From the NCBI GenBank assembly GCA_007134675.1, contig SLKJ01000051.1, positions 1-42,331 on the forward strand: a DNA stretch of 42,331 nucleotides, written 5' to 3'. This stretch comes from Bacteroidales bacterium (lineage in GTDB: Bacteria > Bacteroidota > Bacteroidia > Bacteroidales > PUMT01). This document shows, in pieces, positions 33,581 to 35,918 of this stretch. Position numbers and translations under genes: made by a program. How positions within the stretch are numbered: the first letter of the stretch is position 1; each line of letters starts with the position of its first letter. The notes under the pieces were generated by a model that had not been told where the DNA came from, did no database searches, and saw only the letters and a program-made list of their open reading frames with translations.

Positions 33581-34483
33581 TTAATTTCTTCTTGCTATCC
33601 TTAACCTGGCACTTCTGGCGCGTTTGTTGGTTTTAATTTCCTCTTCTTCAGGCATAACGACTTTCTTTGTCACAAGCTCGAAAGGAACCAGCGGGTTCCC
33701 GAAAAAATCCTTTTCAATGCTCCCTTCTGGTTTACCCGTACGCATAAAGTTCTTGACTATCCTGTCCTCCAGAGAATGGTAGGATATAATTACCAGCCTG
33801 CCGTCTTTTTTTAAACTAAGAAGTACCTGTAAAAGCATGTGCTTAAGCACCTCGAGTTCATTATTCACCTCAATCCGCAATGCCTGAAAAACCTTAGCAA
33901 GGTATCTACTCTCCTGCCGTGAGGGTATGCATCCTGATATAGACCTAAGCAGCCCTGCCATATCATCGAAAGGCTGTTTTTCACGTGCATTGATTATCGT
34001 GCGTGCTAATTTACCGGCATTATGTACCTCACCGAATATTCTGAAAACATTTTTCAAACTTTCGATGCTATAGCTATTCAGGATATCCAGGGCAGTTAAA
34101 GGACTGTCCGGGTTCATCCGCATGTCCGGCCTCACAGCCGACATGAATGAGAAACCCCTTTCAGGTGTGTCAATATGATGTGATGAAAGTCCCAGATCAG
34201 CAAGTATGCCATCAACCATATCTATTTTATAATACCTGAGAAAATTCCTGAAGAACCTGAAATTGCTTCTTATAAACATGAACTGCCTGTCTGTTATATT
34301 CAGGGCCTCAGTTTCGGCATCAGTATCCTGGTCAAAAGCTATAAGCCTTCCTCCATCAAGCTGTGACAGGATCTCTCTTGAATGACCACCCCCACCAAAT
34401 GTAAGGTCAACGTAAGTACCGTCATGACGGATATTCAAACCCTCAACACTCTCCTTCAGAAGTACCGGCGTATGGTAACCCAT
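33581..34483 (-). CDS. rsmH: 16S rRNA (cytosine-N4)-methyltransferase RsmH
   Basis: Methylates N4 of cytosine 1402 (E. coli numbering) in 16S rRNA near the P site, using S-adenosylmethionine. The 300 residues start MGYHTPVLLKESVEGL. The SAM-binding glycine-rich TFGGGGHS is at 28-35, with GILADLGLSSHHIDTPERGFSFM and NSYSIESLKNVFRIFGE later, then KVFQALRIEVNNELEVLKHML and the final SYHSLEDRIVKNFMR. These are the family's marks. It follows mraZ after 11 bases and precedes ftsL by 13. Confidence 0.96.
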   Translation of the reverse strand: MGYHTPVLLKESVEGLNIRHDGTYVDLTFGGGGHSREILSQLDGGRLIAFDQDTDAETEALNITDRQFMFIRSNFRFFRNFLRYYKIDMVDGILADLGLSSHHIDTPERGFSFMSAVRPDMRMNPDSPLTALDILNSYSIESLKNVFRIFGEVHNAGKLARTIINAREKQPFDDMAGLLRSISGCIPSRQESRYLAKVFQALRIEVNNELEVLKHMLLQVLLSLKKDGRLVIISYHSLEDRIVKNFMRTGKPEGSIEKDFFGNPLVPFELVTKKVVMPEEEEIKTNKRARSARLRIARRN

Positions 34484-34494
34484 TGTATTTATTT

Positions 34495-34947
34495 TTATTC
34501 AGTGTCACCCATGATTTTTTCTGCAAGAAAAGCAAAATTATCAACCTCGCCTGAATGATCATCATACAAGTCCCTGCTCCATATCTCAATTTTCCCGTCC
34601 TGCCCGGCGAGCACCACCTCACTGTCTATCCCCACAAGTTCGAGAAGTCGCCGGGGAATAAGTATCCGGTTACTGGCATCAAGCACCACCTCTGCTGTTC
34701 CCTTATAAAAGCCCCTCAGGAAGCGGCTGTGCTCCTTATTGTAGGGATTGATCCGTGACCTGATAATGGAATTCTGCCTGTCCCATTCATCCATCGGGAA
34801 AAGTACCAGGCATTGTTCAAAAATATCTTTCTTTACAACAAATTTATCCATAGCCGCAGTAGGCATCTGCTTTTTAAATGCTGCAGGAAGGATCACTCTC
34901 CCTTTTGAATCAACTTTACATGTAAAATCCCCAATAAAGGTTGCCAT
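34495..34947 (-). CDS. mraZ: MraZ, regulator of the dcw cluster
   Basis: Transcriptional regulator with two SpoVT/AbrB-like (MraZ) repeats. The start at ATG 34947 (MATFIGDFTCKVDSKGRVILPAAFKKQM) gives 150 residues and an N-terminus like other MraZ proteins. The same frame is open to 35040, but the extra 31 residues would run through the operator repeats and are not MraZ-like. Each repeat shows a D-x-x-x-R signature: DSKGR at 13-17 and DASNR in the second, followed by ILIPRRL. MraZ usually represses its own operon by binding repeats upstream. Confidence 0.95.
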   Translation of the reverse strand: MATFIGDFTCKVDSKGRVILPAAFKKQMPTAAMDKFVVKKDIFEQCLVLFPMDEWDRQNSIIRSRINPYNKEHSRFLRGFYKGTAEVVLDASNRILIPRRLLELVGIDSEVVLAGQDGKIEIWSRDLYDDHSGEVDNFAFLAEKIMGDTE

Positions 34948-34985
34948 AGGTTTAGCTATTAACAGGTAAAAATAAAAAAAAATAT

Positions 34986-35018
34986 CCACTTTCAACCACT
35001 TTGCTCCATTTTTCACCA
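34986..35018 (-). promoter_or_regulatory. MraZ operator: four TGG repeats 10 bases apart
   Basis: On the minus strand TGG occurs at 35018-35016, 35008-35006, 34998-34996 and 34988-34986, each exactly 10 bases apart, so all face one side of the helix. Three of the four are in the form AAAGTGG or AGTGG. Known MraZ boxes are direct repeats with 10-base phasing, so this fits. It lies 38-71 bases before the mraZ ATG. Confidence 0.8.
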
Positions 35019-35084
35019 CTTTGTTGATAACTTTTTTCACTATTTCTTACTATTTTTACATGTACAAAGCATTCTACCAATTCT

Positions 35085-35918
35085 ATGACCAAAAAAAAAT
35101 CAGTTCAGGAAGCTGTAATTATTGATGTGGACGCTATTTTCAAAAAGAAAAATCCGCATATCTACAAAATAATCCCCGGGTTTATTCTCAGCTATATAAA
35201 GCGGACAATCCATCAGGATGAGATAAACTTTGCACTGGAAAAGTTCAGGGATAAGCACGGACTTGACTTTTTAACTCATATACTTGAATTTTACGGATTC
35301 AAGTATTCAGTATCCGGAGAAGAAAATATCCCCCGGGAAGGAAGGTTTATTTTTGTCTCAAACCATCCGCTGGGGGGACTTGACGGAATGGTCTTCCTTG
35401 ACATAATCGGAAGGCACTATAAAAATGTGAAATTCATAGTTAATGACCTGCTGCTTAACCTTAAAAACCTTGAACCGCTTTTTATCCCTGTCAACAAACA
35501 CGGGCGCCAGTCAGCCGAATATGTAAGAAGAATTGAAAAACTCTACAAGTCGGATTATCAGGTACTCTATTTTCCTGCGGGACTTTGCTCCCGTAAAAAG
35601 GGTAAGAAGATTGTGGACCTTCAATGGAAAAAAAACTTCATAAAAAAAGCAATAGAACACAAAAGGGATGTTATCCCGGTTCATTTTGAAGGAAAGAATT
35701 CACCATTTTTTTACCGTCTGGCAAATCTGCGCAAAACAATTGGTATCAAAGCAAACATTGAAATGTTCTACCTGCCCGACGAAATGTTCAGGCAAAGACA
35801 CCAGAAAATCCATGTTACCATTGGTACCCCGATTCCGTGGAGCCGCTTTGACAAATCAAAATCCCATGCAGAATGGGCCAATGAGATAAAAGAAACCGTT
35901 TATGCCCTGGCACCTTGA
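35085..35918 (+). CDS. PlsC-like acyltransferase, GlsA-like (O-acyltransferase of glycine lipids)
   Basis: 277 residues, cytoplasmic or peripheral membrane. The acyltransferase motif is SNHPLGGLDG, with His94 and Asp100 spaced by five residues instead of the four of standard PlsC (NHxxxxD). A second block, FPAGLCSRKKGKKIVDLQWKKNFIKKAI near 162, is the glycerol-phosphate-type block II/III region. Proteins of this kind in Bacteroidota are annotated as lysophospholipid acyltransferases; in Bacteroides thetaiotaomicron a similar gene, glsA, lies next to glsB and acylates N-acyl glycine. Here an OlsB-like gene follows on the same strand after 244 bases. The assignment to glycine lipid synthesis is inference from this pairing. 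Confidence 0.82.
   Translation: MTKKKSVQEAVIIDVDAIFKKKNPHIYKIIPGFILSYIKRTIHQDEINFALEKFRDKHGLDFLTHILEFYGFKYSVSGEENIPREGRFIFVSNHPLGGLDGMVFLDIIGRHYKNVKFIVNDLLLNLKNLEPLFIPVNKHGRQSAEYVRRIEKLYKSDYQVLYFPAGLCSRKKGKKIVDLQWKKNFIKKAIEHKRDVIPVHFEGKNSPFFYRLANLRKTIGIKANIEMFYLPDEMFRQRHQKIHVTIGTPIPWSRFDKSKSHAEWANEIKETVYALAP

Follow-up and report, generated by a model that had tools for sequence, protein, structure and literature searches.

A predicted MraZ operator of four phased boxes upstream of the Bacteroidales dcw cluster, with a conserved DnaA-box-like element beside it

Few bacterial transcription factors are as conserved as MraZ. The window, the whole stretch of 42,331 nucleotides that was analyzed (contig SLKJ01000051.1 of a Bacteroidales bacterium, assembly GCA_007134675.1), carries mraZ as the first gene of its dcw cluster, followed by rsmH and facing a divergent acyltransferase gene (Table 1). 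The mraZ product matches PF02381 (9.5e-23) and NF001483 (4.3e-37, a match below that model's own cut-off), as well as solved MraZ chains (1n0e at 2.5e-12; also 9qlr, 9qlg and 9sx6); no useful publication on the recent MraZ entries of the PDB turned up in a literature search. Upstream of the ATG, the reading frame of mraZ stays open as far as a GTG at 35040, which gives a 181-aa ORF, and the open frames of mraZ in the family run from 150 to 189 aa. Because homologues begin at a conserved M-x-x-F-I-G and open-frame length varies among relatives, the start was placed at 34947. An automatic call at the GTG can add 31 codons (34495-35040) and so translate the operator, just as the preliminary description had warned of a frame that stays open across the repeats. 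The divergent pairing itself is conserved: opposite mraZ, many genomes of the order have a glsA-type lyso-glycine lipid O-acyltransferase gene.

Table 1. Genes and predicted regulatory features around the mraZ start (positions of the window)
Feature	Position	Strand	Basis or remark
mraZ, 150 aa	34495..34947	-	profile and structure matches; start from conserved N-terminus
rsmH (mraW), next dcw gene	33581..34483	-	TIGR00006 8.6e-93
divergent glsA-type acyltransferase, intergenic region in common with mraZ	35085..35918	+	NF053697 1.2e-121
Predicted MraZ box 1, AAAGTGG	35016..35022	-	sequence; kept in relatives
Predicted MraZ box 2, AAAATGG	35006..35012	-	sequence; AAAATGG likewise in 14/15 family members
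Predicted MraZ box 3, AAAGTGG	34996..35002	-	sequence; relatives
Predicted MraZ box 4, AAAGTGG	34986..34992	-	sequence; relatives
Second element TTATCAACA, DnaA-box-like	35022..35030	-	starts 8 bp upstream of box 1, abutting
Extended second element AAGTTATCAACAA	35021-35033	-	conserved in relatives
Predicted Bacteroidota -7 box TATTTTTA (TAnnTTTV)	34967..34974	-	motif spacing from last box
Candidate -33 TTG, spacer between boxes 3 and 4 (TTG-N18-TATTTTTA)	34993..34995	-	sequence only

Directly 5' of mraZ, the minus strand reads AAAGTGG-TGA-AAAATGG-AGC-AAAGTGG-TTG-AAAGTGG (AAGTTATCAACAAAGTGGTGAAAAATGGAGCAAAGTGGTTGAAAGTGGATATTTTTTTTTATTTTTACC...ATG in the full read-out ahead of the gene), that is, direct repeats of a GTG/GTGG-type 7-mer separated by 3-base spacers and hence with a 10-bp period. 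Three of the four boxes are exact AAAGTGG and the remaining one is a single base off. As originally described, TGG recurs four times in exact 10-base steps (starts at 35018, 35008, 34998 and 34988; span 34986-35018); the TGGs lie 38-71 bases, and the boxes 38-74 bases, upstream of the mraZ ATG (34947-34945).

Phasing of TGG was rejected as stand-alone evidence. Searched for by itself in the 2.9 Mb genome, TGGN7TGGN7TGGN7TGG matches four separate sites, of which two are perfect decamer tandem repeats, and it is weak evidence because its reversed control is about equally frequent genome-wide. With the box sequence included (AAAGTGGN3 three times, up to 3 mismatches), the matches in the genome were mraZ and one decamer tandem repeat, and the control gave 0. 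Within the window, a four-box PWM, trained on relatives with this locus among them, scored best (46.3) at a spacing of 10 and at most 2.1 at spacings of 7-9 and 11-14; the maximum across 20 shuffles was 13.1. It is box sequence, position and conservation together that make the array real, while phasing by itself is not rare genome-wide. A wider MraZ regulon was considered and rejected, since no second array was found in this genome other than a decamer tandem repeat. Two such repeats of the same genome, neither of them a MraZ site, are TGGTAAATTC in about 11-12 copies (G000:C148:20436-20548) and TGGTATAAAC in about 5 copies (G000:C9:9179-9221; L003-L009).

Conservation was surveyed in up to 300 bp upstream of 139 mraZ loci, comprising 15 from the family, 35 from the order, 25 from the class and 64 from the rest of the phylum. 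Pairs of GTGG at exactly 10 bp numbered 17, 38, 35 and 63 in these four shells, vs 0.04-0.34 expected per distance, and further peaks stood at 20 and 30 bp in every shell. The 139 loci also served to build a PWM for arrays of 10-bp period. Its consensus is AAAGTGG, and at a threshold set by the shuffled 99th percentile it found significant arrays in 15/15, 30/35, 23/25 and 52/64 loci (120/139 in total), the relatives counted being related to one another and not independent. The fitted arrays comprise 4 boxes in every one of the 15 family members; in the order they mostly have 3-4, in the class mostly 3 and in the rest of the phylum mostly 2-3. Only the GTGG-type bases are kept over phylum-level distance. 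Among 62 held-out Bacteroidales-type loci from named genomes, from which duplicates with identical upstream sequence had been removed, arrays were found in all 62 (2.4 in shuffles), with four boxes in 54. Alignment of upstream regions had been proposed as the check on the operator, with absence of conservation as its refutation, and the phased boxes proved to be kept in both sets of loci. The 19 of 139 surveyed loci in which no significant array was found may have misplaced gene starts, too little upstream sequence or a different operator.

In the genomes compared, the array also goes with the presence of mraZ. Eighteen genomes were without detectable mraZ, and 13 of them, six from one family, offered a usable rsmH locus; a phased GTGG pair was found before rsmH in none of this small sample of 13 (300-320 bp upstream). 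Within the order alone, the phased array is present in 0/6 mraZ-less genomes vs 30/35 loci with the gene (Fisher's exact, ~1e-4 with relatedness ignored), although a single deletion could have removed both the array and mraZ. Such genomes are scattered over the order and the phylum and usually keep rsmH (e.g., G016, G017, G036, G038, G040, G043 and family f67).

To our knowledge, published MraZ sites come from Proteobacteria, Mollicutes and a few other groups. In E. coli, the boxes of Eraso et al. (2014) are reportedly three TGGGN repeats with 5-nt spacers; the likeness lies in 10-bp phased direct repeats and in autoregulation of mraZ and the dcw cluster, and the difference in three TGGG-core boxes downstream of the -10 there, against four AAAGTGG-type boxes upstream of the -7 box here. 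The Mollicutes site consists of AAAGTG[T/G] direct repeats, according to the account of Fisunov et al. 2016 in PMC8475190, and it resembles the present one in its AAAGTGG box, in direct repeats before mraZ and in being the genome's only such site; it differs in phylum, the present site being joined to a Bacteroidota-type -7 box and an attached TTWTYMACA element. In Burkholderia cenocepacia, the dcw operator has four 7-nt repeats with 3-nt spacers and a GTG core, mraZ heads the operon as it does here, and an EMSA of the fragment has been published (PMC7761207). These Mollicutes and Burkholderia sites bear out the earlier expectation that MraZ elsewhere binds direct repeats about one turn apart (PMC7761207, PMC8475190). 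The companion suggestion, that AAAGTGG in four copies may be the Bacteroidota form of the operator, held in that the boxes are kept phylum-wide, but the Mollicutes have the same core and B. cenocepacia has four boxes, so that neither trait is peculiar to Bacteroidota, across which box number is mostly 2 to 4. Because it fits the published MraZ box, the array is of a known kind: it is very probably a real MraZ operator in a Bacteroidia-specific arrangement, to which MraZ is predicted to bind. We regard it as highly probable, from sequence comparison, that through these phased GTGG-type boxes MraZ regulates the cell-division gene cluster to which it belongs. The analysis thereby supplies a predicted MraZ operator for the whole phylum.

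A second conserved element abuts box 1. Its extended form AAGTTATYAACAA occurs once in the genome, at the mraZ locus. The motif TTATYAACA precedes mraZ in 15/15 family loci (0.3 expected), 23/35 in the order (0.7) and 9/25 in the class (0.4), and in 1/64 loci from the rest of the phylum (0.7 expected). In the held-out set the broader TTWTYMACA is present in 59/62 loci, in 49 of them exactly 8 bp from box 1. Such a fixed offset, 8 (or 18) bp in most loci, is what would be seen if TTWTYMACA were an extended or half site of the MraZ operator and not the site of another protein; we consider this rather unlikely. The element is nearly absent outside Bacteroidia, where MraZ arrays still occur. It also varies in sequence (TTATCAACA, TTATTAACA, TTTTCAACA and, in some lineages, TTTTCCACA or TTATCCACA), it appears in both orientations with changed spacing, and it is retained in 4/6 mraZ-less Bacteroidia rsmH promoters (0.06-0.16 expected each), together with a -7-like box. 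Because of this variation, the two orientations and the retention without mraZ, the second element probably does not belong to the MraZ site. Its description as a palindrome GTTAnTAAC was rejected, since the variants CTTATTAACA and TTTTCCACA break the symmetry.

The placement of the array relative to the promoter distinguishes the Bacteroidia. The -7 element of Bacteroidota promoters is TAnnTTTV, and a scan of the strand of mraZ with the sigma-70 consensus gave no promoter, which is expected for this phylum. Measured from the first base of the last box, TAnnTTTV begins 18-19 bp downstream in 15/15 family, 22/30 order and 11/25 class loci, and 28-29 bp downstream in some; most Bacteroidia fall within 17-20 bp. 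In the held-out loci the distance is 18-19 bp in 55/62 and 17-20 bp in 56/62. The candidate -33 TTG is not strictly kept in relatives. If the first T of TATTTTTA is taken as -12, the boxes would span about -60 to -24; with its last box starting 18-19 bp ahead of the -7 box, the array of the Bacteroidia would cover the -33 region. The E. coli and Burkholderia placement, downstream of the -10 and over the transcription start (seen in some phyla, but no family-defining trait), is not found here; in B. cenocepacia the repeats lie in just that position (PMC7761207), whereas those of the window precede the predicted -7 box and extend over the -33. Many loci elsewhere in the phylum have a TTGAC motif starting 34-37 bp before box 1, so that the array would there coincide with the transcription start, like that of Burkholderia. 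These motifs point to two promoter placements within the phylum, over the -33 in Bacteroidia and after the -10 elsewhere, and we infer from them that the operator switched promoter sides.

As to mechanism, the MraZ ring may read each 7-bp AAAGTGG-type box with a single recognition unit, and the 10-bp phase would set all boxes on the same helix face. With the array over the -33 region, bound MraZ would occlude it and block access of sigma and RNA polymerase, so that mraZ-rsmH and the following genes would be repressed in a negative feedback loop. Repression as the sign of regulation is taken by analogy from other phyla. There is a small but appreciable chance that the array is a MraZ operator at which MraZ acts as an activator or architectural factor. 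Boxes that lie upstream of and over the -33, unlike those of E. coli and Burkholderia downstream of the -10, would suit such a role, as would their fixed position in Bacteroidia, 18-19 bp (or 28-29 bp, one more helical turn) upstream of the -7 box, in contrast to many non-Bacteroidia, where TTGAC precedes box 1 by 34-37 bp. Boxes 3 and 4 would, however, overlap the -33 contact region, and the published role of MraZ in E. coli and M. genitalium is repression; the M. genitalium mraZ mutant has a derepressed cluster (PMC8475190).

Two further explanations of the repeats are very improbable. Their location inside the shared 137-bp intergenic region, in a genome with other decamer tandem repeats, could suggest that they are part of the promoter of the divergent glsA or simply a short, neutral tandem repeat, but the spacers differ from unit to unit, the conservation over the phylum is limited to the GTGG-type bases (which we count as already refuting this explanation), and the array follows mraZ, not glsA, in distance and presence: in most relatives from the family and the order its position relative to mraZ is about -75 to -82, the distance to glsA ranges from 137 to 569, and arrays are present also without glsA (L027, L034, L036). 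That the boxes are TGTGGATAA-like DnaA sites and not MraZ sites, as the resemblance of box 4 GTGGATA to the reverse complement of TTATCCACA might hint, is hardly credible either, given that ATAA is not kept after GTGG and that neither a strict 10-bp series nor array absence in mraZ-less genomes would be expected of such sites.

For the second element, in turn, a DnaA box is the favoured hypothesis, and this conserved site may link DnaA to the division cluster; it may instead be the site of another cell-cycle regulator. The DnaA box consensus is TTWTNCACA, from which TTWTYMACA differs mainly at one position; TTATCAACA in the window has one mismatch to this consensus, from which the local one may differ, with A in this lineage in place of C6. 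A literature search for a published Bacteroidota DnaA-box consensus found nothing useful. Some lineages carry exact boxes, TTATCCACA or TTTTCCACA, and in some relatives (e.g., L106, L092 and L119) exact DnaA boxes stand at the same place. A second protein, possibly DnaA, may act from about -60 to -68, and we propose, tentatively and at somewhat less than even likelihood, that the Bacteroidia dcw promoter is a composite switch in which a DnaA-type box abuts the MraZ array over the -33, and the replication initiator and the division-cluster repressor compete or cooperate. If true, the switch would tie division-gene expression to replication initiation. Genome-wide counts of TTATYAACA are uninformative (185 vs 152 for the control), and the contig ends of complete genomes, which mostly are not oriC, showed no dense DnaA-box cluster; as a DnaA-box reference they yielded a dnaA upstream region in G061 and nothing else. 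The DnaA reading of the element is favoured because TTATYAACA is enriched before dnaA, with 16 sites in 12/28 upstream regions where 1.3 were expected (reversed control, 2 vs 1.05), and because in G061 the upstream regions of dnaA and mraZ have the 14-mer TGTGGAAAACTTTT in common.
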